Shown here: positions 3,315 to 47,556 of the stretch, in pieces | Position numbering within the stretch: position 1 is the stretch's first letter | Layout: each line of letters begins with the position of its first letter | Assembly: GCA_033439255.1 (NCBI GenBank) | Contig: CM065878.1 | Span: 5,146,001-5,210,000 of the forward strand | DNA length: 64,000 nucleotides | From: Hericium rajendrae | Lineage: Eukaryota; Basidiomycota; Agaricomycetes; Russulales; Hericiaceae | Direction: 5' to 3' | Notes under the pieces: model-generated | What the model was told of the DNA's origin: nothing | Database searches by the model: none | The model's input: the letters and a program-made list of their open reading frames with translations, nothing else | Made by a program: the position numbers and the translations under genes

Positions 3315-3668
3315 GATGTCGTGACGGTGGCGTGGTTCGAAGGATATGAGTATATATTCCAGGCTTATGAACAACCCAAAATATAAATCAAATCACACTA
3401 CCCTAGATACTATCAGATTTTCCACTTTCCCGGATGTACCTAGTCGTTCGAGGAGTTTATCAGGTTTTTCTCTTTGTTGTATGGTTGAACAGCTCCTTGT
3501 ATACTTCTCTTTGCTAGTGCTTATTTTGTGGGTTTTATAGCAGAATTGCTTGGCCTTGTGTATGCTCCTACAAATAGAACCAAACAAAACTTCGGAATAA
3601 CTGGGTCGAAAAAGTCGTAAGAGTGCCGAAACTCCGAGAAGGCTTGAGCTTGAAGTGTCGAGACTTGA

Positions 3669-3757
3669 GGTCGTAAAGGTCGTAAAGGTCGTAAAAGTCG
3701 TAAAGGTCGTAAAGGTCGTAAAGGTCGTAAAGGTCGTAAAGGTCGTAAAGGTCGTAA
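3669..3757. repeat. 9-bp tandem repeat in LTR
   Basis: About ten units of a GGTCGTAAA-type 9-mer lie in the R/U5 part of the LTR. The sister LTR has fewer units (50863-50932), so the array varies in copy number. Reading frames of repeated Thr-Phe across it are an artefact of the repeat. Confidence 0.85.
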
Positions 3758-4028
3758 CTTGGTCTTGCATGAACTGAAACTGGATAGCGATATTCAATAC
3801 GTACTACGGACGTCGAATGGAACTAGACTTGAATCGATGAGTTGCTTACGTACCACGGACGTAAAAGCAAAGATAGGACTTAAGTGAACCAACTAACTAA
3901 CTAGCCTTCCAATCGGTCTAGTAGCTAAACTTACCTTAACTCAAATGCTTCACACTTATTCTCACTCTGGAGATGGTGGTTTTAAAGTCAAGTGGTTGAT
4001 TGGGGGGGGTTAGGTCAATCTGGAGCTC

Positions 4029-4036
4029 CTTATATA
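4029..4036 (-). promoter_or_regulatory. TATA box of LTR promoter, copy 1a
   Basis: On the element strand the sequence reads GGTATATAAGGA. The same core occurs in the sister LTR (51201-51208) and in family 2 (21455-21462). It lies downstream of the LTR ORF, which places that ORF in U3. Confidence 0.6.
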
Positions 4037-5036
4037 CCTTTTGGGGCCCCGAGAATGAACTTCCATATATGTACATGATGCTACACTACTGTGAGAACTA
4101 TTTACTATGTATGTACCCTTAGAGTATTTTCTGCATTTATTAGTGATTTATAATGAGCTTTATAAGCAAACTTGGCTTTGTAATGCTGCATTCTTTGCTT
4201 ATTAAGTGCATTTGTAATCACATTCTCGCTTACTGATCTGATTCATAATCACATTTCCTGCTTATAAATCCACTTTCTTAGCACTCTGCATGCTTTATAA
4301 TACATCTTTCCTGCTTTGTAATCCCAATTCTTGCTTTGTAGTCAGAGATTCTGCTTTATAAGCTTTGTTTATTACCATTTGACACTTTATCAGTGCTCTG
4401 TAAGCAAATGTGCTTACAAATCCACTGCTCTGTCAGCCTGTGGGCTAGGCAGACTCATCACTTGTAAACTTGTTGAACCATGGACTAGAGCTATTCTTCA
4501 TTCTTAGACTGTTTACACATTTGAGTATTTATTTTTACTTAATTTTTACAGTCATTCAGACTTAGTTCTGAGTCCTGGCACTTGTTCTCATTCTATTACT
4601 AGACATAGAATAGCTCAAGTTTACTTTCAAATATCTTTAAGATTTATCTAGCTTTACTGTAAACCTTCAAGCTTTCTGAACATGTCACCGAACGAATGTA
4701 TTCCATCATGACGAACAAACTACGGACAACTGCTGCATGTGACGTATAGTATGCGCGCTCATCATAGCCGAGTAAACAATAGTAGTAAAGTCCACGTAGC
4801 ACTTCCTAACTCGTGACAGATGAGGAAAAATGATGAAGTCGACGAAGGAGGGTGCGATGGGACAGATGGTGGTGTGATTAATGCAGAAGGTCCGAATAGC
4901 TCGCGCGCAAAGATCGACATGCGGAATATGATGACAGATAGCGTAGATGCCAAAAATGAGTGACGACGATGCGATCGCAAGCAAAGCATGAGACAAAACA
5001 AAACATACGAGCAGTCCATGGCTGCATTCCCTCTCC

Positions 5037-5861
5037 TCAGATGTAGTACCGTTCCTTCCCTGTCAAGATATCCATTTTGCATGACCACCGCCGCAACTGC
5101 TCCACCCTCTCCACATCCTCAGGGTCAACATTGTCGGGGAGGACGAATGGCCGGTTGTGGATCTGCCTGTCACCTGCCGGGTCGAATGGTTCGTGGATGT
5201 CGATCGGATGGCGGCAGCTAAGGAGAGCGAGGATGGGATAGTAGCGAGGGAGCTCGGTCCAGATGCGAGGGACCACGAGCTGGACACTTGTCGGTTCGTA
5301 CCCCCGAGTGTCTTCACGCTCTGCTCGGAAGTGCACCCAGGTTGGGCCGACGTGCGAGATCTTGGCCAAGCGAGCTCGGGTGGTGAGGGTGGTCTCCTTG
5401 TAAGTCAGTACCAGCTCGACGAGCAGGCCTTTGCGGATGTGAAGGGATGGGCGCTGCGTGACGAACCAGCTGAGCGAGTAGGCAGGATACCGTGCCTCTA
5501 CCGAGAGATGACGATAGGAGGAGGGATACATGAGGTGGTCATCATCGTCGAGATCATTGACGATCTGGAGAGGAGAGGAGGGACGAGGTGGTAGGGCATG
5601 CTGGTCCGGTGGGGCTATGCCACCTGGCCGTTGACACGAGGCAGGGCGCACGGCACTTATCGATGCTCTGCTCGAGATAGACATCCTGGGGAATCCTGAC
5701 GTGGGCTGTACACCTGAGATGACCGAATTAGGTAGCACGTGGCAGGTGTATTCGCGGGTTACTCGGACTTCGATGGGATTGTCCTTGAAGATTGGATTGA
5801 TGAGCAGCGGATAAAGCTGTGCGTCAAGAGATGAGTGGTGAGGGCAGAAAATACCGAGCAT
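5037..5861 (-). CDS. LTR-encoded U3 protein, family 1 (274 aa)
   Basis: Open frame of 274 codons lying wholly inside the LTR, on the element's strand, upstream of the element TATA box. It aligns almost without gaps with the 279-aa LTR protein of family 2 (19719-20558) and more weakly with the 329-aa protein of family 3 (34281-35270). Shared blocks include EVRVTREYT near the N-terminus, ALPPR.PSSPLQI, YPAYS..WFVTQRP, GLL.ELVL, TWVHF.AERED, LVVP.IW..LP.Y, FDP.GD.QI, and a C-terminal DPED..... LRRW ... ILTG block. No signal peptide, membrane segment or known domain was recognised. Because U3 is only transcribed at the 3' end of a full-length RNA, it would need read-through translation, splicing or its own promoter. 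The sister copy at 52208-53031 is frameshifted. Function is unknown. Confidence 0.75.
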   Translation of the reverse strand: MLGIFCPHHSSLDAQLYPLLINPIFKDNPIEVRVTREYTCHVLPNSVISGVQPTSGFPRMSISSRASISAVRPASCQRPGGIAPPDQHALPPRPSSPLQIVNDLDDDDHLMYPSSYRHLSVEARYPAYSLSWFVTQRPSLHIRKGLLVELVLTYKETTLTTRARLAKISHVGPTWVHFRAEREDTRGYEPTSVQLVVPRIWTELPRYYPILALLSCRHPIDIHEPFDPAGDRQIHNRPFVLPDNVDPEDVERVEQLRRWSCKMDILTGKERYYI

Positions 5862-6156
5862 GGTTGCCAGGTGGCACTGTGTGTCAACGCGAACCCTTTA
5901 ATATCATTCTTGCTTCCACATGAATATTACTGAATCTTAAGATCGGGCGCCAGACTGCAGGTTGAGGGTGATCGGGATCTTGAATCTGGGTCTCGACTTG
6001 GTCCGGTCGCTTGGTTCTTGCTGATCAGGTCCCATAGTGTTCAGCAACCCATTTATCGGCCCATACTGATCTATCGCACACCGATACCGATCTATCGTAC
6101 AATTTTAATCACTGAATCACTTAGGTCGATGATCAAAACGGGTTTTGTTCACGACA

Positions 6157-16048: not shown

Positions 16049-16059
16049 CATCTGAGAAA
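16049..16059 (+). repeat. Terminal inverted repeat, left
   Basis: CATCTGAGAAA, exact complement of 19222-19232. Confidence 0.85.
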
Positions 16060-17887: not shown

Positions 17888-17937
17888 TTTATTAGTACGA
17901 ACAGTATCAATAAAGAGTTTTTTTTTACTTACCTTGC
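17878..17937 (-). repeat. Intron-like direct repeat, copy 2
   Basis: Partner of 17502-17562, with a GTAAGT donor and TACTAAT branch-like motif on the minus strand. Confidence 0.55.
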
Positions 17938-19221: not shown

Positions 19222-19232
19222 TTTCTCAGATG
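19222..19232 (-). repeat. Terminal inverted repeat, right
   Basis: Exact complement of 16049-16059. Confidence 0.85.
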
Positions 19233-19467
19233 TTGCTGGAAACTATTGCGAAGGAGAATCCCTTCAGCAACTTCATTGACTTGTTCCATGGTAAATGGCT
19301 GAGTATGATCATGGTATGGATATTTCCCATGAATGCGCTGATCAATTTTGGCAAGAAGTCCACTTCCAATGCCCATCCAAAAGTATAAGTCTTCTTCTCT
19401 TTTATCAATCTTGTGGGCCTTCCTAAGCCAACCTGAAATACTGACAAAACCTCTGCAGTATTTACGC
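19233..19467 (-). pseudogene. ORF1 Gag fragment, copy 1b (piece 2 of 4)
   Basis: This piece matches 2374-2611 of copy 1a and encodes the mid-Gag block (about GWLRKAHKIDKREEDLYFW to EGILLRNSFQQ). It is bounded on the left by the TIR transposon and on the right by the ACGC target site of the family-2 LTR element. In frame it belongs between 49772-50356 and 11551-16048. Confidence 0.85.
19464..19467. other. Target site duplication ACGC, left copy (family 2)
   Basis: ACGC directly precedes TGTCGTGCCC at 19468 and is repeated at 49772-49775. Copy 1a has a single uninterrupted ACGC at this point (TTTACGCCAGG). Confidence 0.85.
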
Positions 19468-19718
19468 TGTCGTGCCCAAACTCGGTTTAGACAATGACAT
19501 GATATATCTAGCAGCAGACCCGTTTTGACATCCCATGCGCTGTTACATTGAGAGTGAGTATGATATTGAGTACAGGTCTCGGCACAAGTCTGAGAATCTG
19601 ATTGCCATTAACTTACCATAGGCGCTCAATCTGAGATCCAGGGAAAAACACTTACGAAAACTGGAAGCGAGAGCAATATTAGAAGAACGCTCGCCAAAGT
19701 AGCACCCTTGCCACAACC

Positions 19719-20558
19719 ATGTTCAGCTGCCTTCGTCCCCGCCGCTCCTCCCTCAATCCTCACACATACTCCCCGCTACTTGGCCATGTCTTTGACGAAA
19801 AACCAGCAGAGGTTCGGGTGACGCGAGAATATACACGTGATTCCTTTCCCAATTTGGACCCCTCAGACGTGCAGCCCATTCAGCTTGTTCCAAGAATATC
19901 AATCGCCAGTGATGCCTCTGCCAGCGCTGTGTGCCCAGCCTCGTGGCAGCAGTTGGGCAACACAGTCTCACTGGATGAACATGCCCTCCCCCCTCGCACC
20001 CCATCCCCTCATCCCTCATCCCCCCTCCAAATTATCAACGACCTCGCCGACAAGGACGAATTCTCCTTTCCCACCCTATACAGGCACTTGCCGGTGGACG
20101 CTTACTATCCAGCCTATTCGACGAACTGGTTCGTTACTCAACGCCCTCCATTCCTAGTCTGTAAGGGGCTCCTCATCGAGCTGGTGCTCAAGCACCCAGA
20201 AGGAACCCTGATCGCACGTGCCCGTATCAGCAGCATCCACCATGTTGGGATGACCTGGGTTCATTTCTGGGCAGAACGTGAGGATGCCTTCGATCATGAG
20301 TTGAAGAACATACAACTCGTCGTTCCGCTCATCTGGAGCCAACTACCTTGGTACCGTCCCATCACCTCCTTCTTCCTTCGCCGCTCCATCCTCGATCTTC
20401 ATGAGTCCTTCGATCCATCGGGTGACAAGCAGATCTACGGTCGCCAGTTCGATCTTCCTGCCCATGTCGATCCCGAGGATTACGAGAAGATACTCGAGCT
20501 ACGCCGTTGGGCTTCCAGGATTGGGATTTTAACGGGAAGACAGAAGTACCGTCTCTGA
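19719..20558 (+). CDS. LTR-encoded U3 protein, family 2 (279 aa)
   Basis: Intact 279-codon frame inside the LTR, starting 251 nt from the LTR edge with ATG in MFSCLRPRRSS, about 900 nt upstream of the LTR TATA box. It aligns with the family-1 protein (5037-5861) along nearly all of its length: EVRVTREYT, ALPPR, a Ser/Pro-rich stretch, YPAYSTNWFVTQRPPF, GLLIELVLK, GMTWVHFWAERED, LVVPLIWSQLPWYRP, FDPSGDKQIYGR and the C-terminal LRRWASRIGILTG. The aligned positions include many Trp, Pro and Gly residues while the DNA is well diverged, which points to selection on the protein. It is acidic to neutral overall, with no membrane segment or known domain seen. The 3' LTR copy is identical in layout but split by the family-3 insertion. 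Function is unknown. Confidence 0.78.
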   Translation: MFSCLRPRRSSLNPHTYSPLLGHVFDEKPAEVRVTREYTRDSFPNLDPSDVQPIQLVPRISIASDASASAVCPASWQQLGNTVSLDEHALPPRTPSPHPSSPLQIINDLADKDEFSFPTLYRHLPVDAYYPAYSTNWFVTQRPPFLVCKGLLIELVLKHPEGTLIARARISSIHHVGMTWVHFWAEREDAFDHELKNIQLVVPLIWSQLPWYRPITSFFLRRSILDLHESFDPSGDKQIYGRQFDLPAHVDPEDYEKILELRRWASRIGILTGRQKYRL

Positions 20559-21454
20559 AGAATAGGATTAGCAGCTTCACCGGGAATGTGAAGCATGCTT
20601 GTTAGGTGTGTGGGGACATGGACTCTTTTTCCTTCATTCGCATTATGCCCTTATGACCTCTCCCTTGCTATCACATCGTTGTCGCTCGTTTGTCGTATCT
20701 CTGTCACATCACCATCGTATCATGCCATCATCCCCACTCTCCTTCCCAACTCATCGATCTTCGTGCGCAAGCTATTTCCTCCCTCTGCACACTTAAATTC
20801 CTTTTCATTCGTCTTTGCCCATGTTCGGTCTATGCCACCTTGTTGACAGATACAGATAGTTTACAAGTGTTCGCATCTCCCTTACCTCGCATCCACGAAC
20901 TTACTACTATGATACTTCGGCTATAATTTGCACGCACATACTATACATCATGCAGAGCTTGGTATAGAATATTCGACGCAGCCTGTTATGCCTATACTTG
21001 ATGGCCTGACTGGAGTGACCTGGAGAAAATATTTATTTAAGGGAAAATCTCAACTTATTCCCTGAAGATATTTTGTCACAGCCTCACCCACATTAAGGGC
21101 TATGAAGCAATGCAATGCAGACACAGCCCTGATGCAATGCAGACACAGCCCTGATGCCATGCAAGCACAGCCCAGCATAGCCTCATTAGAATGCACAGCC
21201 CTAAAAGCAATGCACATCTCAATGGATAATTCAGGATAAATAGGGAAAATACTACTGAAGGCATTGGTAAGCCTGAAAGTGTATTAATAGAAGCACAGCA
21301 AGCAGATTTATAAGCAGAACAGCCTTGAAAAAGTGAATAGAAAGTAACTTATTAAATTCAGAATTGTATATTAGTAGTACAGCCTTAGTTAATTTAGCAC
21401 AGCAGTAGATAGTCATGTACATATTAAGCAGGTCTTTCCCACAACCCCTAGGGG

Positions 21455-21462
21455 TATATAAG
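21455..21462 (+). promoter_or_regulatory. TATA box of family-2 LTR
   Basis: GGTATATAAGGA, the same core as the family-1 LTRs. It is followed within about 70 nt by a CT-rich stretch. The 3' LTR copy is at 49141-49148. Confidence 0.6.
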
Positions 21463-21680
21463 GATTTGGACTCTGTTCTGTAAAAGGCAATTCAGGAAAG
21501 TACCCCTTGAACTCAACTTTCATCTCCTTTCTCTCTCTCTCCTCTCTCCTTCCCTGCTTTTCTGTGTCAGGGCAACTTAAGTGCAGTCTCAGTATAGACT
21601 CACTCTGCTTGCAAGTCCAGAACTAGCTTATGGCTGTAGAATCAGCTTCTCCATCAGCCAAATAGTTATTTGTCACTATC

Positions 21681-21806
21681 GTCACCGTCAGTAGTCCCTT
21701 CGTCACCGTCAGTAGTCCCTTCGTCACCATCAGTAGTCCCTTCGTCACCGTCAGTAGTCCCTTCGTCACCGTCAGTAGTCCTTTCATCACCATCAGTAGA
21801 CCTGCC
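21681..21806. repeat. 21-bp tandem repeat, six units
   Basis: Units of the type GTCACCGTCAGTAGTCCCTT plus C. The 3' LTR has seven units (49367-49513), which accounts for its extra 21 bp. The repeat lies in the transcribed R/U5 part of the LTR. Confidence 0.88.
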
Positions 21807-22066
21807 GTCATCATCAGCAATCCCTCCCCTCTGTCACCTCCTTCTCCATCCTCTGTTCTCATTGTGCAAACCTCCAACCTTCCAGTACACTCCTTACAGC
21901 AACTTTGATTGAGAATCAAATAAGTCTATTTGAGAAAACAAGAATCCTCCCGAACAACTAGATACATCCGAGAAAGTGGAAAACCTGATAGTACCTAGGA
22001 AACTGTGAATACCCAACCCAACCAGTGTTCCCTAACACCATACTTCACAGCTTTCGCCACGACATC

Positions 22067-22084
22067 TGGAGCCCACCGCGAGGG
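22067..22084 (+). other. Primer binding site, family 2
   Basis: TGGAGCCCACCGCGAGGG two bases after the LTR end, identical to the site in copy 1a and family 3. Confidence 0.72.
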
Positions 22085-22171: not shown

Positions 22172-25100
22172 ATGTCGGCTCAGGCTCATCACTCACAACT
22201 CCCTCCTTTGAGTACAACCCTGAGAACATCACCTCCTCCAGCTTCTCCAACAGAAGCTTGGTCATTATCATCACCAAGGCATCCCTCAGTATTGTCACCC
22301 CTCTCAGAACATTTTAGTACAACTCCACCACCTCAATTTAGATTCCCGACACTCTCTCAGCCAGCACCAATTCCTCAAATGCCACCTCCCACAATTAACT
22401 CATATTTGTCAGCTCTCACTATGCCCTTGCCTGGTACCAGAGATGCTCCCATTAAATTTAAGGGGGAGTATGATCAGGTCGAGCGCTTTATCAGAACCTA
22501 CGAGACCTTATGTCATCAGAATCGAGTATTTACTGCATCACTTAAATGTGAACACATTACGCAGTACTGCTCACGTAAGGTCGCGGACTTGATCGAGGCA
22601 CTTCAAAGCTATCGAGCCAAGGACTGGGAACAGCTTAAGAAGGATCTGCTTCAGTACTTCGATGCAGATCGACTTAATAAGCGCTATATTAAGAGAGACT
22701 TAGAAAAATATGCTAGGTCTACAAAGTATAAGAAGATGGGAGATCTGAAAGCATGGCGCAAGTATTCTAGAGGGTTTATAAGCATTGCAGGATGGCTTCG
22801 GAAGACCAACAAGCTTACCCCTGAAGAAGAAGCATCCTTCTTTTGGTTAGGTATTGGACGAGGGCTCAGAAATAAAATTGAGGCCCGCCTTTATGCTAAA
22901 GACCCCCTGCATGACAGATCAATCCCATTTAGCATCTCAGAAGTTAATGAGATAGCAGAGGGAATTCTGCAGCGAAATAAATTTGATGTGAATCTTGAAG
23001 ACTCAGATGAGGATGAAGATTATGGTTTAGACTGGTCTGGAGAATCAGACAGCAGTGATTCCTCTTCAGAATCATCAGATGACGAGAGAATCCGCAAGCC
23101 CAAGAAATATAATTCTAAGAAATCTAAGTCCAAGGACCTTCAAAAAGGAAAGAAAGTCAAATTTGCCCAGGATGAAGAACCTGAGCTCACAAAAGTTAGC
23201 TTTCATGCAGCTCGAGCAAGGCAAAGCCCTTCTCCGGTTAGGTCTCGCGCAAGAACCTCAGACCAAGTACAAGCAGAGGAACTTATTCAAGAATTAAATT
23301 CGATGCGTACAGACGATCCTGAGTACGGTCTGTTATACTATCGAGCGGTGAAGCTTGACACATTTGTAGCATCAGTCGTCAGTGCCCCAACCCCTCGACA
23401 ACGCCCGACGCTTGTCCCAACGGCGCCCCCAAATGAACCACCAAGGCAGATCTTCCAGCGTGAGCGACCGCCGCACAATGAAAGTGGCGTACGCCCTCCA
23501 ATGCCACGCACGAACCTCCCACCCCCTAGCATGAATGCCCTGCCGCGGCGGACAAACTCAATCCCAACCATGGCCGAGAATCCTCCCTTTCGGCGGGAGG
23601 AGATGACATGTTATGGATGCGGTGCTCGCGGGCATGGCATGAGTATGTGCCCGGGCCTGCGAAGCCTGCATGAACAAGGGATAATTCAAAGAGATCGAGA
23701 TGGAAAGATCACGTACCGAGATGGGAGACGAGTCATCCGTTTCCGCGATGAAAACATGATCGCTGCTATTGAGCGCGACCAGGGGTTGACTCGGGATCCA
23801 GTGACGATGTCAACCAACTTAATGACCATCGTCGGAATGTCAGAAAATGAGCACGAAAAGGATGAGGATGAAGACGACTTACAGTACGTGGTGTACGCTG
23901 TCGAGGACGACAGCCTACACGAAGTTTACCCTCTCGAGAGCAGGAAGCACCCTGAAGGTGCACGAAAGTCAGCCACCACGCGCGGGAAGAAACAAATGTT
24001 TGACGGTGTACACGTACCTCCGATCAGCCCCACACAGCGTGCACGGCTTCGAGGCGCTGCCCCGACGATCCCGCCGAAACCCGTAAACAAGAACACAAGG
24101 GCTCAAACACCCGCGATCGACATGTCCGAGCCTCGGGAGGCTAACGCATCGAAGATCCCTGGAGAACGATCAACCCACCCAATAGGCAGGATGATGCGAA
24201 GCTCCTGGAAAGACAGGGAAAGGATGGATGACTCTCCATTAGAGAGCGACCAACCTGCGCCCGATCCACCCATTACTCCATTCGACATGCGAAAGCCCGC
24301 GTTCAATCCCCTCAACGATGAGGAGATAATCGAAGACCAAAGCCTGCAACCAAAGAATACCATGCCGATAAATAAGCCGTGTTCAAAAGGGCCGCAAAAC
24401 AAAGAAAACGTACCAGTAACTGAAGCAAAACGCACCGCACGTAAGTCGGCGATCTCCTCCACCGTGGAACCTGCCGAGGTGCTGACACACGTCCTGAACA
24501 CGCCGGTGCAGCTGCGCGTCGGCGAGGTCTTTGGAATATCCAAAGATCTATCTCAGATGTTATCAGAAAAACTGAAGCCACGTCCAGGAATGGAGTACTC
24601 ACAGCATTCTGCGACAGCCGCCGTCGCATTCGTCGAACAGCCCCTACCTGACAAGCCCCTCAACCCAAGGGATAATGCATACCCGATGAAAGCCACTCAC
24701 CTCTGTGAGGAGATCCGAGGATCTGGGGTCGCAGGCGTCTCCTATCAGCAGGTTGCACAAACGCTGACCCACACGCGAGATCCCCACGGAGACCTAATAA
24801 GAATAAAGGTTAGGTGCGGGAATCATTACATTACCGCTGTAGTAGATACCGGTTCACAATTAAACATTGTGAATGAGGAGATATGGCAGCAGGCAATGGG
24901 GATGATCCCCAACGACACTCACCGAAATATTCATGTACGAGATGCGAATGGGAATGTCGAAGAGCTCCGCGGACTGGTATCTAGCGTCCCGCTGACCCTC
25001 GGAAACCTACAAACGGAAGCCGACTTGTACGTCGCGACAAACGTCCCATTCCCAATCTTGCTAGGACGTCCCTGGCAGCGTCAAAATTTCGTCTCAATTG

Positions 25101-28006
25101 ACGAGCGGCCAGAGGGCACTTATCTCGTATTCAAGGACCCCGCGGACATTAGTAAAGCACGTTTTGAGCTCATGGTAGATTACCACGCACCTACAGAACC
25201 AGAAACGCAAATTAAGGATACTCGAGTGTGCATGAGCCTAATAAAAATAGAGATAAATCAAGAGTCCACAAAGCGGAAGCAGATGAGATCAGTGTCCCGG
25301 TATGGCTTAGCCGAGCTGGGATCGGAGACGGATCTCCCAATGATCGATATCATCCCGACAGGATCTGTCAGATCGAGATCTCCCCTGATCGACCCTGAGG
25401 TCCTCGAGATCTTATCTAGTCCTGTGCGACTTAGTGAATTTCCCTCCACAGTCCGTCTAGTTATGCCCCAACTATACCAATCCCATTTTTTCTTAAAAAG
25501 CCTGCGGATTTGCCCTCAACCGACCATCAACCTTTCCCAACTCATGCCTCCGCATTACCGGTATGATAATTATGCACTAGATTGGTTCTCACTCGTCGAA
25601 AACCGTAATTCACTTCCTTCCTCTTCCTGGCCACCAGCCGGCAATGAACGCACTGTCGTCCAGGCAGTACATGATAGCTGCGCTGATCTTCCTGCTCTTG
25701 AGCATGACGGTCAGCTTGCTGACGTTGTGCTTTCATCGCGGCATGGAATATTCCTTGAGCCCCAGGAGGACTCGGGCACCGGTGCGCCCTATCGCGAGCT
25801 CGTAATTCCTGACGCCTCTCTGGTAGGAATCCGAAGCGATCATCCGCCGGATGTCCGTCATGGCGCCAGCTATTGCTTGTTTGTCGATCGCGAACATCTC
25901 CCGCAAGTCTCACGCCCAAATCCCACCCCACATAATTTTATGGTGCCGTTCTTCCATGACGACACGATTGTGCGTTACCGATCGCCTACCCCGACGCTTC
26001 AAGAATCCAACTCAATTCCGCAGACACCTAGGGACAGTACAGTATGTTACTACCCCGACGGTGTGCAGGCTTTCTCGCTAACGCCTCTGCAGTCTCGCGC
26101 ATCGACTACTCCCCGACCTCAGTCTCTCCCAGTGATCCAGCAGCCTTCATCGGAGAGATTTGCGCTCCCGCGCAGTCTCTCGTCACCTCAGTCCGATGCT
26201 CTACCTCCTCCCGACGCTATCCTTCACTCCTCCGGCATCACATGCGCAACCTCGAATTCGTTCACCGGCAAATACGACGACACGCTCAAGGTCACGAATA
26301 AGCGCAAGCTCAGGCCCGAAGACCGTGAGCTGCTGGACATCCCTGCGGCTTCAAGCACAAGCACGTCGGCCAAGAAACGGTGCGACTCTACCCTCAGCAA
26401 CGACGAGCTGTACGCACTCTCTGAAGACCCGCAGGAGAACTCAAGTCGGCCAGAGAAGGCAGACTCGACGCACGTGCAGGAGAAGGAAATCGAGACCAAG
26501 ATCGCCAGGAAGGACGAGGCAATGGACGTAGACACCGACATGGGTACGTCCTCGCACTCGCCATACTTTAGCGACCCGAGGCTTGAATTCACCTCATTTC
26601 CGCTCGCAGGCTCCCCTCTCAAGAAGGTTGCCTTCACCGCCGCGGATATTCCGCTGGACGTTGCACCACCCCCGACGCCCGTTTTCCATCGCCCCGTGAC
26701 CCCCATCACGCAGGCCATCCCGAGTGTGCTCTTCGCTGGGATCGGTGATCCACTCCCGCCAACGCACCCCATGAATTTCCAGCCCATTTCGCCCCCGAAC
26801 CTCACCAATTTCCAGCAAGGCTCGATGTTCAAGAATCTTGCAGTCGACACGAGCCCTCCCAAGACTATCTCCGACCCCGCCGTTGCTCTTGCTACGCCCG
26901 GCAGCACGCAACCTCCTGCAGTTAACGACGATGACCCCGACTCTGCCGCCTCCTCCATGCCCTCCCTCATGTCCATTTCCAGCGCGTCTCCCCTCGATTC
27001 TCGTCCTAAGGGCATGCCCAATGGCATCGCCTTCGCTCATACGAAGATCCACGACGGCGCGAAGCCTGATTCAAGGGATAAAGACGATGGAGCACCCGAT
27101 GAGCCCCTCACGGTTGAGGAACTCATCAAGACCAACGAATTTCGGGCTAGGGTGGACCGCGCGTTCGCTAGCGCACTGGCACATAATGCCCAGATGGCTG
27201 CAAACCAGTCTGCTCAAGACCAAACTTCTGCTGCTCCAAGCGGAAATGATGGTTTTCGTCGGGAAGGCGAGATGATAGTGGACGTATCCACCGGCCTTCC
27301 GGTAGCTCAGGGTGAGTTTATGTTCAATCCTCGGCGTGCCCTTGTACCAACGTGTTCACCAGAAGATAGACGAGGCGACTCCTCCGCAGGGGTTCAGCCT
27401 AATACCGTATCTCGTGAACCTGTTCGACGAGCTCCGCCTGCGCGATCCGGCAAAGCTCCGTCATTTATTCCCGGATCTAGATCCTGGTCCCGACCACGAT
27501 GCAACGCTCCCATTTCCAGCAAGCCGAAGACCAACGGCGGACCAGCTTCGCGAACACGCTCGAACACACGCACACAGCCCACCGCCCAGCCAAACAACAA
27601 CGCCTCCCCAGCTGGGGGAAGCCCAGGAATTCCGCCATCCGTGCCTGGCGGATTTCAGCCTGGCAACATACAATTTTTGGCGTCGCCGCCTCCGCTGTTT
27701 CCTGAAGGATCTCCTTTCCTCACTGGACCTGCTGCTTACCCTCCCGGATTCATGGGTCCCTCTATCTATCCACTCGCGCGCAACGCCCCAGGTCCGCCAT
27801 TTGCGCGAGAAGGCGGCGCACCGCCGACTTTTCCCCCCGGAGCCTTCACTTTTCCTGCCCCAGGAGGTCCGTTTCATGCAGGAACTTTCCAGCCTGTATC
27901 GGGCATGGGACCGTTTGGAGTTCGCGGACTCGATGGATGGAATCCTGGACATGAAGTTTGGGGACGATCCCCTCATAGCATGGTTAATCCATCTGGAAAT
28001 CCTTGA
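22172..28006 (+). CDS. ORF1 polyprotein: Gag, zinc knuckle, protease, long linker (family 2)
   Basis: Frame of 1944 codons starting at ATG 22172 (MSAQAHH), about 90 nt after the PBS. The frame is also open upstream into the LTR, but this is the first ATG inside the element. Domain order is a Pro/Ser-rich N-terminus, a Gag core after TMPLPGTRDAPIKFKGEY (residue about 85), an acidic Ser/Asp linker, a CCHC knuckle C-YG-C-GARG-H-GMSM-C starting at 23609 (residue about 480), a retropepsin DTGSQLN with D at 24845 (residue about 892), and a long Pro/Ser-rich region. The last 230 codons (after about 27312) are Gly/Pro-rich and do not match ORF1 of the other families. There the conserved C-terminal domain is in the next frame (27312-28118), so a frameshift is inferred. 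Confidence 0.85.
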   Translation: MSAQAHHSQLPPLSTTLRTSPPPASPTEAWSLSSPRHPSVLSPLSEHFSTTPPPQFRFPTLSQPAPIPQMPPPTINSYLSALTMPLPGTRDAPIKFKGEYDQVERFIRTYETLCHQNRVFTASLKCEHITQYCSRKVADLIEALQSYRAKDWEQLKKDLLQYFDADRLNKRYIKRDLEKYARSTKYKKMGDLKAWRKYSRGFISIAGWLRKTNKLTPEEEASFFWLGIGRGLRNKIEARLYAKDPLHDRSIPFSISEVNEIAEGILQRNKFDVNLEDSDEDEDYGLDWSGESDSSDSSSESSDDERIRKPKKYNSKKSKSKDLQKGKKVKFAQDEEPELTKVSFHAARARQSPSPVRSRARTSDQVQAEELIQELNSMRTDDPEYGLLYYRAVKLDTFVASVVSAPTPRQRPTLVPTAPPNEPPRQIFQRERPPHNESGVRPPMPRTNLPPPSMNALPRRTNSIPTMAENPPFRREEMTCYGCGARGHGMSMCPGLRSLHEQGIIQRDRDGKITYRDGRRVIRFRDENMIAAIERDQGLTRDPVTMSTNLMTIVGMSENEHEKDEDEDDLQYVVYAVEDDSLHEVYPLESRKHPEGARKSATTRGKKQMFDGVHVPPISPTQRARLRGAAPTIPPKPVNKNTRAQTPAIDMSEPREANASKIPGERSTHPIGRMMRSSWKDRERMDDSPLESDQPAPDPPITPFDMRKPAFNPLNDEEIIEDQSLQPKNTMPINKPCSKGPQNKENVPVTEAKRTARKSAISSTVEPAEVLTHVLNTPVQLRVGEVFGISKDLSQMLSEKLKPRPGMEYSQHSATAAVAFVEQPLPDKPLNPRDNAYPMKATHLCEEIRGSGVAGVSYQQVAQTLTHTRDPHGDLIRIKVRCGNHYITAVVDTGSQLNIVNEEIWQQAMGMIPNDTHRNIHVRDANGNVEELRGLVSSVPLTLGNLQTEADLYVATNVPFPILLGRPWQRQNFVSIDERPEGTYLVFKDPADISKARFELMVDYHAPTEPETQIKDTRVCMSLIKIEINQESTKRKQMRSVSRYGLAELGSETDLPMIDIIPTGSVRSRSPLIDPEVLEILSSPVRLSEFPSTVRLVMPQLYQSHFFLKSLRICPQPTINLSQLMPPHYRYDNYALDWFSLVENRNSLPSSSWPPAGNERTVVQAVHDSCADLPALEHDGQLADVVLSSRHGIFLEPQEDSGTGAPYRELVIPDASLVGIRSDHPPDVRHGASYCLFVDREHLPQVSRPNPTPHNFMVPFFHDDTIVRYRSPTPTLQESNSIPQTPRDSTVCYYPDGVQAFSLTPLQSRASTTPRPQSLPVIQQPSSERFALPRSLSSPQSDALPPPDAILHSSGITCATSNSFTGKYDDTLKVTNKRKLRPEDRELLDIPAASSTSTSAKKRCDSTLSNDELYALSEDPQENSSRPEKADSTHVQEKEIETKIARKDEAMDVDTDMGTSSHSPYFSDPRLEFTSFPLAGSPLKKVAFTAADIPLDVAPPPTPVFHRPVTPITQAIPSVLFAGIGDPLPPTHPMNFQPISPPNLTNFQQGSMFKNLAVDTSPPKTISDPAVALATPGSTQPPAVNDDDPDSAASSMPSLMSISSASPLDSRPKGMPNGIAFAHTKIHDGAKPDSRDKDDGAPDEPLTVEELIKTNEFRARVDRAFASALAHNAQMAANQSAQDQTSAAPSGNDGFRREGEMIVDVSTGLPVAQGEFMFNPRRALVPTCSPEDRRGDSSAGVQPNTVSREPVRRAPPARSGKAPSFIPGSRSWSRPRCNAPISSKPKTNGGPASRTRSNTRTQPTAQPNNNASPAGGSPGIPPSVPGGFQPGNIQFLASPPPLFPEGSPFLTGPAAYPPGFMGPSIYPLARNAPGPPFAREGGAPPTFPPGAFTFPAPGGPFHAGTFQPVSGMGPFGVRGLDGWNPGHEVWGRSPHSMVNPSGNP

Positions 28007-30101: not shown

Positions 30102-33100
30102 ATGGAAATCTATGATACGTTTACCACCTACAAACGGGTGGACAAAAAGGTCCGGCCTGTCTCTGGAACTTTTCCTGAGGACGCGCGCGTTGCTCGGAGA
30201 ATTCCGGAGGACCCCATGAATACCTTGCCCCCACTAACTCCTCGACCACCAACCTTCGTATCCTCAGACCGAATGACCGCAGAACAATTAAATGAACTGC
30301 AAATAAATTCAGAAGGATTCTTATGGCCTGAAGAAGAAAAATTATTTCAGCATATCATGTGTCTACATCGAGAAGCCTTAGCTTTCACTGAAACTGAAAG
30401 GGGAACTCTCAAGGAATCATACTTCTCGCCATACATAATACCAACAGTTCCACATACTCCATGGGTCTCTAAAAATATTCCTATCCCTCCAGGTATTAAG
30501 GATGAAGTCTTGAAACTCATCAAGGATAAAATTGCAGCTGGAGTCTATGAACCAAGTCAATCTGCTTACTGCTCAAGTTGGTTTGTAGTCCTCAAGAAAA
30601 ATGGCAAGATCCGGATAGTCCATGACCTTCAGCCTCTCAACAAAGTTACAATCAAAGATGCAGGCCTCCCTCCCATTTTAGATGATTTTGTCGAACCTTT
30701 TGCTGGACGTGCATGCAGCACAGTATTTGATTTATTCTGGGGGTTTGATGCGCGCAAGGTTGATCCTGCAAGTAGAGATCTTACAGCATTCAGGACACCC
30801 TTAGGGCTTTTAAGAATCACCTCTATGCCCATGGGATTCACTAACTCTCCAGCTGAATTCCAGAACTGCATGGCCTTCATCCTCCAACCAGAAATTCCAG
30901 AAAAGGCCAATATATTCATTGATGACTTAGGAGTCAGAGGACCCCCATCAACATATCCAGATCAAGATGGTAACCCAGCGGTTCTTGAAGAGAACCCTGG
31001 AATCCGTAAATTTATTTGGGAACATGCACAAGATGTAAATTGAATCATGCACCATGTCAAGCATGCCGGTGGCACTTTCTCTCCAAGCAAAGCTCAAATA
31101 GCAAGACCAGAAGTCCTCATAGTTGGACAGAAGTGTACACCTTCTGGAAGGATACCAGATGATAAGAAAGTGGAAAAGATCCTAGCCTGGCCACCTCTAA
31201 CAAGCATTACAGAAGTCAGAGGCTTCCTAGGACTTTGTGGCACAGTTCGAATCTGGATTCCTAATTACTCTCAGATTGCAAGGCCACTTACTGAGCTGAT
31301 CAGACATGACCATGAATTTGACTGGGATAACCGAAGGCAAGATGCATTCAATGAACTCAAGAAATTAGTTACATCAGCACCTGCACTCCGTCCAATCAAT
31401 TACCATTCCAATAACCCAGTAATTCTTTCAGTTGACTCTAGTTACATTGCTGTAGGATTTATCCTCTCACAGCTAGATGATGAAGGTCGAAGACGCCCAG
31501 CACGCTATGGATCACTACCAATGTCAGAGGTAGAATCCCGATATTCTCAACCTAAGCTAGAACTATTTGGACTCTATCGAGCCCTTAGACATTACAGCCT
31601 ATTCATTGTAGGACTGACTAATTTCTATGTGGAAGTTGATGCCAAGTATATCAGAGGCATGCTTAACTCTCCAGACATTCAGCCCAATGCAGCTATTAAC
31701 AGATGGATTCAAGGTATTCTCATGTATGACTTCACACTAGTTCATGTTCCAGCTGACAAGCATAAGGGACCCGATGGTCTCTCACGCCACAGACCTAATA
31801 ACTGCGAAAATATGGAACTTGACAATGATGAATGGCTTGATAAAATTGCACTGTATTTGGGAAGAGTCCCAGATTCCATCAATGAGCAAAGCAACACCCC
31901 AGCACCTTATAACATTGCAACACTACCATCCGTAATGGCCATATCAATCTCATCACAAGATCAAACACTTTTAGACATCTTTAACTTTCTCAACACTCTC
32001 CAATACCCATCTGGGTTAACTTCAATCCAAAAGCAGAAAAGGTTTCTTCGCAAAGTCTCTCATTTCTTCACTAAAGGTGGAACTCTCTTCAAACGCAATG
32101 GAAATCAATCTCCTCTCAAAGTTATATTCCAACAAGAACAGAGAGCCTCCTTGATGATGGAAGCTCATGATAAGTTAGGTCACAGAGGTGAAATTGCAAC
32201 ATTCGAAACCCTTCGAGTTAGATTTTTCTGGCCATATATGCGTGCTGACATCAAGCATCATGTTGCCTCCTGCTATCAATGTCAAATACGAAGCACCAAG
32301 AGAACCGAGGTTCCACTAATCACGTCAACTCCTTCAACAATTTGGATCAAAGTATACATTGACATAATGTACATGCCAAAGACTTCAGGCTACAAATTTA
32401 TTGTCGCTGCAAGAGATGATTTATCACGTGCCTCCGAAGGTCGAGCCCTTACTAGAGCATCCGCTAAGGCTCTGTCAGATTTCTTCTGGGAACAAATATA
32501 CTGTAGGTATGGAGCCATAGGCCAAGTCACCACTGACAATGGTCCAGAAGTAAAGGCTGGATTCCAATTGCTAATGGAACGTCTTGGTATCCCCCAAATC
32601 CCTATCTCTCCATACAACTCCAAAGCCAATGGGGTGGTCGAAAGAGGCCACTTCATAATCAGAGAAGCAATCGTCAAATCCTGTGAGCACCGTCTTAGCT
32701 TGTGGCCAACAAAGGTCCACGAAGCTTTCTTTGCTGACAAGATCACAACAAGTCAAGTGACAGGATTCTCCCCATATTATCTGCTTCATGGTGTACACCC
32801 AGTTCTCCCATTCGATCTCACAGAAGCCACATTCTTAGTAGAAGGATTCCACTCTGGTATGAGCCCAGAAGACTTGCTCACCCTTAGGATGCGCCAACTT
32901 GAAAAAAGAGAAGAAGATCTCGAGCATGCTGCAGCCCGTCTCAATCAGTATAGAGTCAAATCTAATGCTGACTTTGAAGCCAAATTTAAGTTTAGACTAC
33001 AGAAGAATGAATTTCACCCAGGAGACCTTGTTCTCATGAGAAATTCCATGATTGAAAACAGCCTAAACAACAAGACCAAGCCTCGCTATCTTGGACCCTT

Positions 33101-33284
33101 TGAAGTTGATAGACGGACTAAAGGTGGATCATACGTTCTAAAGGAACTATGTGGAATCTATCTACGAGATGCTTCAGCAGCCTCTCGGCTTATTCCGTTT
33201 ATCGCCCATGATGAAAAGATGCTCAAAAAGTTAGCCCAGACAATTCGATGCAAGCCATATGACCTAGATGGTTACAGGGTATAG
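30102..33284 (+). pseudogene. ORF2 Pol: reverse transcriptase, RNase H, integrase (family 2), one TGA
   Basis: This frame copies and integrates the element. It is one frame interrupted only by TGA at 31041-31043. The family-3 protein has Arg there (DVHRIMH against DVN-stop-IMH), so CGA to TGA is inferred. RT motifs include SWFVVLKKNGKIRIVHDLQ, TPLGLLRITSMPMGFTNSP and the catalytic box NIFIDDL (DD at 30921-30926), with Phe in place of the usual Tyr. RNase H has VDSSYIAVGF, KLELFGL and VEVDAKY. Integrase has an HDKLGH...CYQC zinc finger, and DDE residues in VYIDIMY, TTDNGPE and NGVVERGH, followed by a GPF-type module (YLGPFEVDRR). No protease or chromodomain was seen. It ends at TAG 33282-33284, 58 nt before the 3' LTR. 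Confidence 0.9.
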
Positions 33285-33342: not shown

Positions 33343-33593
33343 TGTCGTGCCCAAACTCGGTTTGGACAATGACATGATATATCTAGCAGCAGACCCGTTT
33401 TGACATCCCATGCGCTGTTACATTGAGAGTGAGTATGATATTGAGTACAGGTCTCGGCACAAGTCTGAGAATCTGATTGCCATTAACTTACCATAGGCGC
33501 TCAATCTGAGATCCAGGGAAAAACACTTACGAAAACTGGAAGCGAGAGCAATATTAGAAGAACGCTCGCCAAAGTAGCACCCTTGCCACAACC

Positions 33594-33745
33594 ATGTTCA
33601 GCTGCCTTCGTCCCCGCCGCTCCTCCCTCAATCCTCACACATACTCCCCGCTACTTGGCCATGTCTTTGACGAAAAACCAGCAGAGGTTCGGGTGACCCG
33701 AGAATATATACGTGATTCCTTTCCCAATTTGGACCCCTCAGACGT
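33594..33745 (+). pseudogene. U3 protein of family 2, 3' LTR copy, N-terminal part
   Basis: The first 50 or so codons match 19719-19870. The frame then runs into the family-3 LTR, giving a chimeric tail to 33839. The rest of the gene is at 47557-48244. Confidence 0.8.
33742..33745. other. Target site duplication ACGT, left copy (family 3)
   Basis: ACGT before TGTCGCG at 33746, repeated at 47553-47556. The uninterrupted site is seen in the 5' LTR of family 2 near 19868 (CAGACGTGCAG). Confidence 0.85.
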
Positions 33746-33998
33746 TGTCGCGCTGAATTGTGTTATCAGCCTAGATGAGCTGGGTTATGGTCTTTCCCAA
33801 GTACACCTAGTGGTTCAATGGGAGGATATAGCTTTCTGATTTTGCGCTCGTCGCACACTTAATCGGATATATCTATATATATTCCTGAATTTGTTCAGGA
33901 CAGGCAGTCTGGCAGTCTGTCAGTCTTTGTTTGCACTTATTTAATGCAAGGGTGAATAGCGTGTATTCGAAGGGAAACTTTCTTCCCTATTTCTGGCT

Positions 33999-34007
33999 CT
34001 TTATATA
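33999..34007 (-). promoter_or_regulatory. TATA box of family-3 LTR
   Basis: TATATAAAG on the element strand, about 270 nt past the stop of the U3 ORF. The sister copy is at 45594-45602. Confidence 0.55.
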
Positions 34008-34280
34008 CTAGAGGAAATGAGGCTGTACGTGAATGACCAATCGACTAAAAACTCGGTTTGTAAGAAAAGGAACATATTACTAAACTCCAACCAGGCGACT
34101 CAGCGAATAACTGCATGAATCAGCAGAAAAACTGAACGACTCAGCGTATTTGAAGAGGATGAATAAGCAAAAGGTAAATCTGTAATCGAACTAGGACGAC
34201 TCAGCAAATCTCCTTTGAATGAATAAGCAAATGTAAGCCCTTATGAATAAGCACTTACCCAAACTGGGATATCTTTCCCA

Positions 34281-35270
34281 TTAAGCTTGCCTGCCCCGGA
34301 TCCTTGCCCATCCCTCCAGATTGACGTAGTACCTTGATTCGCAGTTCAGGATCTGGGCTGCTTTGATTCCTTCCATCCTCTTGACGTAGGAGAAGAACGC
34401 GGTGGTCCGCGGCAGCGGGATCGATGAATTGTGATGAGGAGGGAAGTAGGTGTGGATGTGATCGTATGGGTTGAACCGACCGAGTATGTCCATCTTCCCA
34501 TACCCCTTCCAGGCGATGAGGCGTGATGCGAGTGACGACGGCGTGATGCTCCAGATGCGGGGAACAAAGACGAACAGATGATTTCCTTCCCACCTAAGCC
34601 CGTGCGTATTGATGATCTCAGGGACTCGTCTGACCTTGAACTGCATCCAGCTAGATCCTGCACTGACCAACTCCTCCACTATCCCTGATACGCAATATCC
34701 CTCTTCTCCACTCATTATTACCAATCTCTCTCCCACGGCTATGTCACATGTTGGACGGACGACACAGACCCATGGATTGTTCACATTTTCTTCGATTAGA
34801 TCCGCAGAGGCGAAAATGAATGGGAGGTCGTGAGGAGCGCTGATGGAGTAGAATGAACCCAAGGGGCACTCCTTACGTATGAGGCTTGCGCTTGGCTTGC
34901 CCGGCTGGGTGGGAATCATGATTTGATCTGTCAGGACGTAGTCTGGAATGAGAAAGCGGACGAGCTGATCAGGATGTAGGATACAAGAAAATGGTGAATT
35001 AGGCGGCTGATATATAGGGGGAGGTGTTTCAAGATGCATTCGGTCTTCTACCGGATCGTATTGCAGAGAGAAGCGTGGACCAAGAAGGGAGATGTTTTCC
35101 ACGGTCGTGTGGGTTTGACGCTCGACGTGAACTAAGAGCTGATCTTCAGGCTGAGGGGATCCGCTGTGAGGGTGACGACGGAGAAAGAACATTGTGGTTA
35201 CAGGGAAAGATTGGTGTCTCGGTTCGTCAGGGAAGTCCTTTAGCTGTTCTTGGCTCGAAATCCCCATCAC
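34281..35270 (-). CDS. LTR-encoded U3 protein, family 3 (329 aa)
   Basis: Intact frame of 329 codons inside the LTR, on the element strand and upstream of the LTR TATA box. It is longer at the N-terminus than its relatives (MMGISSQEQLKDFPDEP, then a PP-rich stretch ETPPPIYQPPNSPFS). Similarity to the family 1 and 2 proteins is low but ordered: GERLVIM.. for GLLVELVL, SSWMQFKVRRVPE for TWVHFRAERED, VFVPRIWSITPSS for LVVPRIWTELPRY, a RFNPYD block, and a C-terminal ESRYYVNLEGW for ERYYI. No known domain or membrane segment was recognised. The start codon lies only about 40 nt from a candidate gene on the other strand (35293-35900). In the 5' LTR the same gene is altered by a 20-bp duplication. 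Confidence 0.7.
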   Translation of the reverse strand: MMGISSQEQLKDFPDEPRHQSFPVTTMFFLRRHPHSGSPQPEDQLLVHVERQTHTTVENISLLGPRFSLQYDPVEDRMHLETPPPIYQPPNSPFSCILHPDQLVRFLIPDYVLTDQIMIPTQPGKPSASLIRKECPLGSFYSISAPHDLPFIFASADLIEENVNNPWVCVVRPTCDIAVGERLVIMSGEEGYCVSGIVEELVSAGSSWMQFKVRRVPEIINTHGLRWEGNHLFVFVPRIWSITPSSLASRLIAWKGYGKMDILGRFNPYDHIHTYFPPHHNSSIPLPRTTAFFSYVKRMEGIKAAQILNCESRYYVNLEGWARIRGRQA

Positions 35271-35292
35271 ACGTAAAGGTATGCTAACCGAG

Positions 35293-35900
35293 ATCTTCTT
35301 CTGTTACTGTGGTGTATGCTTCGATTGCCGTTACTTTGCCCGGTCTGGACCGATTCAATTGGTGGCTGAGGCATATGCAATGCTGCATGCACGTTCCAAT
35401 ATCTCTTCCGGACGACTCTCATCTTACTACTACTCGGGCTATGGATGTTGCCAATCCTCTGTTCAATTTTCAAGTGCAGATCCTTTTGGCTTGAATATAT
35501 GCTGAGATTTCTGACATGCTTGTCCCCTGCTAGAACGGCCAGTGGGTCTATTTTTGGGACTCGACGGGTGAAATAATTCATGGCAAGGTTCGGTCGACTG
35601 CCATCCAAAGCGATGCAAGTCTCATTTTTCTCCGATGATTTTCTATTCATGATGCTTACCCTTCAATCCTCCTCTTTTAGGGCACCCAAATTGTCCAGTT
35701 GAGGCTAGCTGGAACACGTAACTTTGTCAACTTTCCGTGAGTCATAGCATTATAAAACATTGAGGTCTATGTTTAATTTCTTTCTTTTTAGTGCTGACCT
35801 AATGAATGCCGATCCGAACCCGCCTTCAGCTATTCAGGAGTCAGCCATCTTTATGAGATACTGGATTAAGCGTGCAAACGAGAGCAGGGTAGATTTTTAG
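35293..35900 (+). CDS. Candidate spliced gene antisense to the element, in family-3 LTR
   Basis: On the plus strand, four exon-like pieces join in phase across three introns: 35474-35533 (GTGCAG...CTGAC...CTAG, 60 nt), 35615-35680 (GCAAGT...TTTTAG, a GC-AG intron, 66 nt) and 35737-35791 (GTGAGT...TTTTTAG, 55 nt). The joined frame is open for about 140 codons and ends at TAG 35898-35900. Its composition looks like protein (pieces LPGLDRFNWWLRHM, NGQWVYFWDSTGEIIHGKV, GTQIVQLRLAGTRNFVNF, FMRYWIKRANESRVDF). No start codon was found: an in-frame stop lies at 35285-35287, so a further upstream exon or a truncation is needed. It is divergent from the U3 ORF. The other LTR has the same structure (46900-47508). 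The family is not recognised. It may be a captured host gene fragment or a second LTR gene. Confidence 0.45.
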
Positions 35901-35944
35901 AGAGAGTCCATGATCGAGTTTACAAACCTTTTGTGAACGCGACA

Positions 35945-45336: not shown

Positions 45337-45931
45337 AAGATGTCGCGCTGAATTGTGTTATCAGCCTAGATGAGCTGGGTTATGGTCTTTCCCAAGTACA
45401 CCTAGTGGTTCAATGGGAGGATATAGCTTTCTGATTTTGCGCTCGTCGCACACTTAATCGGATATATCTATATATATTCCTGAATTTGTTCAGGACAGGC
45501 AGTCTGGCAGTCTGTCAGTCTTTGTTTGCACTTATTTAATGCAAGGGTGAATAGCGTGTATTCGAAGGGAAACTTTCTTCCCTATTTCTGGCTCTTTATA
45601 TACTAGAGGAAATGAGGCTGTACGTGAATGACCAATCGACTAAAAACTCGGTTTGTAAGAAAAGGAACATATTACTAAACTCCAACCAGGCGACTCAGCG
45701 AATAACTGCATGAATCAGCAGAAAAACTGAACGACTCAGCGTATTTGAAGAGGATGAATAAGCAAAAGGTATCGAACTAGGACGACTCAGCAAATCTCCT
45801 TTGAATGAATAAGCAAATGTAAGCCCTTATGAATAAGCACTTACCCAAACTGGGATATCTTTCCCATTAAGCTTGCCTGCCCCGGATCCTTGCCCATCCC
45901 TCCAGATTGACGTAGTACCTTGATTCGCGGT

Positions 45932-46876
45932 TCAGGATCTGGGCTGCTTTGATTCCTTCCATCCTCTTGACGTAGGAGAAGAACGCGGTGGTCCGCGGCA
46001 GCGGGATCGATAAATTGTGATGAGGAGGGAAGTAGGTGTGGATGTGATCGTATGGGTTGAACCGACCGAGTATGTCCATCTTCCCATACCCCTTCCAGGC
46101 GATGAGGCGTGATGCGAGTGACGACGGCGTGATGCGAGTGACGACGGCGTGATGCTCCAGATGCGGGGAACAAAGACGAACAGATGATTTCCTTCCCACC
46201 TAAGCCCGTGCGTATTGATGATCTCAGGGACTCGTCTGACCTTGAACTGCATCCAGCTAGATCCTGCACTGACCAACTCCTCCACTATCCCTGATACGCA
46301 ATATCCCTCTTCTCCACTCATTATTACCAATCTCTCTCCCACGGCTATGTCACGTGTTGGACGGACGACACAGACCCATGGATTGTTCACATTTTCTTCG
46401 ATTAGATCCGCAGAGGCGAAAATGAATGGGAGGTCGTGAGGAGCGCTGATGGAGTAGAATGAACCCAAGGGGCACTCCTTACGTATGAGGCTTGCGCTTG
46501 GCTTGCCCGGCTGGGTGGGAATCATGATTTGATCTGTCAGGACGTAGTCTGGAATGAGAAAGCGGACGAGCTGATCAGGATGTAGGATACAAGAAAATGG
46601 TGAATTAGGCGGCTGATATATAGGGGGAGGTGTTTCAAGATGCATTCGGTCTTCTACCGGATCGTATTGCAGAGAGAAGCGTGGACCAAGAAGGGAGATG
46701 TTTTCCACGGTCGTGTGGGTTTGACGCTCGACGTGAACTAAGAGCTGATCTTCAGGCTGAGGGGATCCGCTGTGAGGGTGACGACGGAGAAAGAACATTG
46801 TGGTTACAGGGAAAGATTGGTGTCTCGGTTCGTCAGGGAAGTCCTTTAGCTGTTCTTGGCTCGAAATCCCCATCAC
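45932..46876 (-). pseudogene. U3 protein of family 3, 5' LTR copy, frameshifted near the C-terminus
   Basis: Counterpart of 34281-35270. The 20-bp duplication at 46111-46150 shifts the frame after VPRIWSITPSSLASR, giving a different C-terminus that ends at 45932. A single-base insertion upstream also fuses the frame to an open stretch reaching 47257, making an apparent 441-codon ORF that is not the ancestral gene. Confidence 0.7.
46111..46150. repeat. 20-bp tandem duplication in family-3 5' LTR
   Basis: Two adjacent identical 20-mers (46111-46130 and 46131-46150). The 3' LTR has a single copy, so this arose after insertion. Confidence 0.9.
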
Positions 46877-46899
46877 ACGTAAAGGTATGCTTAACCGAG

Positions 46900-47508
46900 A
46901 TCTTCTTCTGTTACTGTGGCGTATGCTTCGATTGCCGTTACTTTGCCCGGTCTGGACCGATTCAATTGGTGGCTGAGGCATATGCAATGCTGCATGCACG
47001 TTCCAATATCTCTTCCGGACGACTCTCATCTTACTACTACTCGGGCTATGGATGTTGCCAATCCTCTGTTCAATTTTCAAGTGCAGATCCTTTTGGCTTG
47101 AATATATGCTGAGATTTCTGACATGCTTGTCCCCTGCTAGAACGGCCAGTGGGTCTATTTTTGGGACTCGACGGGTGAAATAATTCATGGCAAGGTTCAG
47201 TCGACTGCCATCCAAAGCGATGCAAGTCTCATTTTTCTCCGATGATTTTCTATTCATGATGCTTACCCTTCAATCCTCCTCTTTTAGGGCACCCAAATTG
47301 TCCAGTTGAGGCTAGCTGGAACACGTAACTTTGTCAACTTTCCGTGAGTCATAGCATTATAAAACATTGAGGTCTATGTTTAATTTCTTTCTTTTTTAGT
47401 GCTGACCTAATGAATGCCGATCCGAACCCGCCTTCAGCTATTCAGGAGTCAGCCATCTTTATGAGATACTGGATTAAGCGTGCAAACGAGAGCAGGGTAG
47501 ATTTTTAG
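46900..47508 (+). CDS. Candidate spliced gene antisense to the element, 5' LTR copy (family 3)
   Basis: Second copy of the candidate at 35293-35900 with the same four exon pieces, the same three introns and the same stop (47506-47508). Differences are few, for example GTG to GCG near the start and an extra T in the third intron's polypyrimidine run. Being an LTR duplicate it is not independent evidence that the gene is real. Confidence 0.4.
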
Positions 47509-47552
47509 AGAGAGTCCATGATCGAGTTTACAAACCTTTTGTGAACGCGACA

Positions 47553-47556
47553 ACGT
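47553..47556. other. Target site duplication ACGT, right copy (family 3)
   Basis: Follows the GCGACA end of the family-3 LTR, matching 33742-33745. Confidence 0.85.

Follow-up and report, generated by a model that had tools for sequence, protein, structure and literature searches.

Self-comparison of a 64,000-nucleotide window (the whole stretch analysed; Hericium rajendrae contig CM065878.1, positions 5,146,001 to 5,210,000) revealed a tower of nested Ty3/Gypsy elements whose long terminal repeats (LTRs) contain a gene of their own. Very probably, this LTR gene is a selected, trans-acting accessory gene located in the U3 region of one Gypsy clade. Each of the three families of the window (F1, F2 and F3) harbours an intact copy:

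19719..20558, forward strand: family 2 LTR gene, 279 codons, intact, in the presumed U3 (LTR positions 252-1091)
5037..5861, reverse strand: family 1 LTR gene, 274 codons, intact (LTR positions 296-1120)
34281..35192, reverse strand: family 3 LTR gene, 303 codons from MFFLRR, intact (LTR positions 753-1664)
21455..21462, forward strand: TATATAAG, sole TATATAA of the family 2 LTR and presumed promoter of the genomic RNA

Position, reading frame and selection of the LTR gene

In each LTR type, a single long ATG frame runs in the direction of the element and lies wholly inside the LTR, in its 5' portion (5037-5861, reverse strand; 19719-20558, forward strand; 34281-35267, reverse strand). The longest element-strand frames observed (279, 328 and 274 codons) were matched by 0 of 1000 dinucleotide shuffles for each of the three LTRs. 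The true family 3 gene is 34281-35192, because constraint starts at MFFLRR and this motif aligns with the gene start of F1 and F2. When F3 was compared with the related family F3b, the proportions of non-synonymous (pN) and synonymous (pS) differences were 0.44-0.47 and 0.41-0.57 upstream of MFFLRR (69 aligned codons, two bins) vs. 0.03-0.10 and 0.33-0.42 downstream. A start at 35267 was consequently discarded, as the aligned codons upstream of 35192 are unconstrained. The initial annotation had described frames of 274-329 codons in the three LTRs; the position in U3 and the strand were retained, but the family 3 gene is shortened to 303 codons.

The gene was inside the LTR in all five LTR pairs compared and in F1 copy A; in the F8 pair the common part starts only at codon 3, since the 5' LTR has lost the gene start. 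Two copies per element, as proposed initially, are thus seen in the LTR pairs, but the second copies in the window are broken: that of F2 is interrupted by the inserted F3 (33594-33745 and 47553-48244), and those of F3 and F1 copy B are frameshifted. The partner of F1 copy A, outside the window (locus L019), has an open frame. As the gene lies inside the LTR, a solo LTR alone amounts to one gene copy, and a full-length RNA would have the gene at its 3' end. The gene is intact in a solo LTR with the target duplication CCGG (L010) and in a truncated F2 LTR that has lost the TATA box (L013), and 14 of the 17 full-length F8 places are stop-free. Among the other frames of the window, matches to the LTR gene at E values up to 1 were LTR copies only.

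Codon comparison (Nei-Gojobori, with Fisher tests for significance) indicated that the LTR frame is a protein-coding gene under purifying selection. Within families, pN/pS was 0.096/0.486 = 0.20 in F8 (L042/L044; 65 vs. 98 changes, p 2e-31), 0.021/0.163 = 0.13 in F3b (L033/L034; p 1e-12) and 0.031/0.155 = 0.20 in F2 (L009/L013; p 8e-9). Between F2 and F1 it was 0.277/0.806 (p 2e-40); synonymous sites are near saturation between families, with pN of 0.28-0.60 except for F3/F3b. The ratio of non-synonymous to synonymous rates (dN/dS) near 1, which the initial annotation had set against a functional gene, was not observed in diverged pairs, where pN/pS is far below 1 (0.13-0.20 within families). 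Young within-family pairs weigh against selection, as their dN/dS is mostly 0.1-0.9 and once 1.21, the pattern expected of dead copies. A chance frame or a constraint acting only in cis was ruled out by the codon selection together with the shuffles.

The assignment to U3 follows from the TATA boxes. A single TATATAA is present at LTR position 1988 in F2, 2121 in F1 and 1938 in F3, each time 3' of the gene, and five families (F1, F2, F3, F4 and F8) have one TATATAA[AG] per LTR, always downstream of the gene. Because this sole box is downstream, the usual U3-R-U5 logic would place the sense gene wholly in U3, with the limit of U3 set by the TATA position. The order of gene and element TATA box claimed at first is therefore corroborated in five families, the promoter role being presumed. 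Looser TATA patterns are also present, in F3 at LTR positions 929 and 2064 and in F1 at six other places. In F8, TTATAA[AG]ATGA was found approximately 120 nt before the ATG in all five aligned copies and is retained despite a dS of about 0.8 (L043 and L050 are without that stretch, and the locus boundary truncates L045). A conserved box directly 5' of the gene argues in favour of a U3 promoter devoted to it. A box of this type was absent from the 310 nt upstream of the gene in F1-F4. The F2 leader contains, by eye, a candidate 73-nt intron of fungal type (19551-19624), the ends of which are preserved in L013; no counterpart was seen in F1, F3 and F4.

Families, relatives and rate of change

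The F1 and F2 proteins are 54% identical and the F3 protein is linked to them via F4, F5 and F6, so that the homology noticed at first among the three families is real. Protein queries against the host genome (46.8 Mb, 19 contigs) gave 60 matches for F2, 46 for F3, 57 for F8 and 59 for F6. A reverse transcriptase (RT) search of the same genome demonstrated that the elements with the LTR gene form one RT clade, with identities of at least 71%. At the 29 RT places of this clade, a gene match was present 1.5-6 kb downstream in 26, 5-16 kb upstream in 25 and on both sides in 23. By contrast, no LTR-gene match was detected downstream or upstream at the 40 places of the Gypsy clade with 43-50% RT identity, and none downstream and one upstream at the 50 places of the clade with 32% identity, although diverged genes could be overlooked by this search. 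The single locus of the 43-50% clade that was viewed (L047/L048, C13:966001-980000) showed no LTR over its 14 kb. Within this genome, the LTR gene is a marker of a single RT clade.

Whether the same frame exists in other LTR elements had been raised initially. Further families were found in this genome; elsewhere, word-seeded protein searches gave only two partial Hericium alpestre proteins, which is a weak result. The protein-database search with F8 gave no match, the alignment search of that database being weak as it scored only 8000 candidates, and a scan of IMG/VR with the F2 protein was also negative.

Three relatives of the LTR gene are single-copy with open frames (F5, L026:3392-4213; F6, L027:2342-3181; F7, L028:2484-3164). 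The gene and its near flanks have no other DNA copy (in F5 and F6, more distant sequence does have matches elsewhere), and no same-strand RT of the clade is present within 16 kb. F7 has 9-bp inverted ends (TGTCGGCTC), but no target duplication. They may have been taken over by the host or may be remnants of families since lost, and they prompt the question whether a host makes use of an LTR protein.

In 20 of the 21 family pairs, pN was 2.9 to 5.8 times higher in the LTR gene (0.28-0.60) than in RT (0.09-0.17). The exception is F3/F3b (L034 and L051 compared with window positions 34281-35192 and 38279-39205), with pN 0.059 and pS 0.38 in the LTR gene vs. pN 0.075 and pS 0.89 in RT. Because silent sites are far closer in the LTR gene than in RT, the LTR seems to have passed between these lineages after their pol genes had separated.

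Nested elements of the window and integration at CpG

Family 2 (19468-49771, forward strand) sits inside a family 1 copy (reverse strand), and family 3 (33746-47552, reverse strand) sits inside the 3' LTR of family 2. The remaining features of the three families are as follows:

3317..6156, reverse strand: family 1 copy A 5' LTR, 2840 bp
19464..19467: family 2 target duplication ACGC, second copy 49772-49775; the empty site is single at 2605-2608
19468..22064, forward strand: family 2 5' LTR, 2597 bp, TGTCGTG..CACGACA
22067..22084, forward strand: family 2 primer binding site TGGAGCCCACCGCGAGGG
22172..28006, forward strand: family 2 gag and aspartic protease frame, protease models slightly below the Pfam cut-offs
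30102..31043, forward strand: family 2 RT piece
31047..33284, forward strand: family 2 RNase H and integrase piece, chromodomain model not among the matches
33343..33745, forward strand: family 2 3' LTR, first part; gene copy from 33594, interrupted at 33745
33742..33745: family 3 target duplication ACGT, second copy 47553-47556; the empty site is single at 19867-19870
33746..35944, reverse strand: family 3 3' LTR, 2199 bp
45341..47552, reverse strand: family 3 5' LTR, gene copy frameshifted
47553..49771, forward strand: family 2 3' LTR, second part; its gene copy finishes at 48244
50509..53326, reverse strand: family 1 copy B 5' LTR, gene copy 52211-53031 frameshifted

These are Ty3/Gypsy elements by their LTR pairs with TG..CA ends, target duplications and primer binding sites, and by the domain order in Pfam (RVT_1, then RNase H, H2C2 and rve). 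The rve score was 31.7 bits in F2, slightly below the cut-off, and above it in F3. A chromodomain gave no match at E values up to 1 in 31047-33284 or 36185-37072, although divergent ones can escape. The LTRs are 2.2-2.8 kb across the three families and start with TGTCGTG in F1 and F2 and TGTCGCG in F3, with complementary ends. The primer binding site is common to F1-F3, 2-4 nt past the LTR, and differs at two bases in F1 copy B. Family 1 copy B also holds a 3.2 kb insertion with inverted ends CATCTGAGAAA and TTTCTCAGATG (16049-19229), by its look a DNA transposon. Short tandem repeats lie 3' of the TATA box in the family 2 LTR (21679-21825 and 49365-49532), with gaps that differ between the LTR copies.

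The clade of the LTR gene integrates at CpG with 4-bp NCGN duplications, which is a new observation. Equal 4-bp duplications were present in 7 of the 8 elements or solo LTRs with both ends lined up, the exception being F1 copy A, whose flanks are unequal (GTGC and CCAT). The outer 4-nt flanks of F1, F2, F3, F4 and F8 were collected by LTR pattern (TGT/ACA ends, at most 4 mismatches, L057-L076 included), giving 49 distinct external flanks after exclusion of 12 internal ones; the flank of L022 (ACGC) is outside this count. NCGN was present in 42 of the 49, and the remainder comprises four with TG and three with CA, nothing else. CpG accounts for 6.3% of the dinucleotides in the window, and the excess in the flanks is significant (P 2e-43, counting flanks rather than independent insertions). 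A looser count with up to 5 mismatches, in which antisense matches were included and the F8 starts were off by one base, gave 28/37, L033 (CCAG) being among the rows later dropped. Identical 4-mers were found in 16 of 18 flank pairs, with rows matched by place and by eye. The element at C2:682036/695199 is flanked by ACGT and ATGT, consistent with one CpG decaying after insertion. One Gypsy family with 32% RT identity served as control: it showed 5-bp duplications in 8/8 pairs, none with CG (L078 with an LTR pair, L077 without), and only 2 of 20 flanks had CG at the position compared (Fisher 4e-9). As both the family 2 and family 3 empty sites are readable within the window itself, this strict CpG rule makes Gypsy target choice testable against DNA methylation.

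Possible roles of the LTR protein and known systems

A selected accessory gene acting in trans would imply that the LTR itself gives rise to the protein, in F8 from a TATA box of the gene's own approximately 120 nt 5' of the ATG, and that it is a soluble, non-membrane protein working for the element. The profile search suggested initially was performed with Pfam, NCBIfam (prokaryote library) and PDB sequences, and gave no credible match to a known domain. Foldseek with the predicted model gave no significant match. However poor, the model hints at a possible small SH3/Royal-like barrel in the conserved core: of the ten residues that are invariant or almost so, seven fall in region 137-206, the part modelled at fair confidence, and this region weakly matches AGDP3, SAWADEE, chromo-barrel, Tudor, BAH and other chains. 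A SUMO-interaction-like motif was present in F1, F2 and F4 but not in F3, F5, F6, F8 and F9, and was not used.

The association of the LTR gene with CpG integration admits several readings. CpG targeting by the integrase alone, the two traits merely sharing a clade, is rather probable: integrase cuts the target, and the duplication length (4 bp in the clade vs. 5 bp in the control family) is an integrase trait. Nothing speaks directly against it, but both traits co-occur in the five families tested. It is improbable that the gene encodes a separate targeting factor, an adaptor facing chromatin or methyl-CpG that would steer integrase to CpG in (methylated) repeats and so build the nested towers, with solo LTRs as autonomous sources. 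A broader role, in which the protein core would face chromatin and either shield LTR expression from silencing or help to guide CpG integration, is the preferred though tentative proposal for what the protein does. Equally tentative is regulation of the element's own RNA, by an activator binding its own U3 or a repressor limiting copy number. The promoter-adjacent position, the presence in solo LTRs and the fast evolution fit a factor co-evolving with its own LTR, but no DNA-binding domain was recognised by Pfam or NCBIfam (prokaryote library). Such a factor would presumably resemble MMTV (mouse mammary tumour virus) Naf or Ty1 p22.

A captured host gene or a functionless chance frame is very unlikely: the three single-copy relatives would fit it, but purifying selection and the shuffles oppose it, and no homologue was found in Pfam, NCBIfam or PDB sequences, the protein database giving only the two Hericium alpestre proteins; capture may have occurred in the distant past. 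An env-like or cell-surface gene is scarcely credible, for although it would, like env, be the last gene of the full-length RNA, it lies inside the LTR and not between pol and the LTR, and a membrane protein was ruled out by hydropathy, as no hydrophobic or membrane segment occurs in 8/8 proteins (highest 19-residue value 1.25).

The selected accessory gene in U3 matters because LTRs are usually regarded as regulatory DNA, whereas in this clade they double as genes, and a solo LTR could yield protein. Neither a fungal element with a gene encoded in its LTR nor CpG-specific Gypsy integration was found in the titles and opening abstract lines of the openly accessible literature, and the parts consulted of a survey of fungal LTR elements mention no LTR-encoded gene (PMC3248453). 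Crapaud of Podospora anserina is likewise a fungal LTR element with a variable 5' half of the LTR, but its description gives two ORFs, one for gag and one for pol with a chromodomain, and no LTR ORF is mentioned in the sections consulted (PMC10787394). Grande gene23, RIRE2, Retand and Boty of Botrytis also have accessory frames retained in most family copies; unlike the LTR gene, theirs mostly occupy the stretch from pol to the 3' LTR, a few of them antisense, and none is named in an LTR in the text consulted (PMC7264820). Rice Retrosat2 is similarly a large element, with LTRs over 3.2 kb and an extra protein, ORF0, that outpaces pol in evolution, but ORF0 is upstream of the gag-pol frame and no LTR placement is stated in the part consulted (PMC3485330). 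The likeness drawn initially, to the betaretrovirus MMTV, is apt in position: its sag gene is in the LTR U3 and, as described in the portion consulted, driven by a second U3 promoter, P2, which the extra TATA box of F8 resembles (PMC9412291). The present gene differs from sag/naf in belonging to a fungal Gypsy element and in encoding a protein without a membrane segment, and the likeness is one of position.
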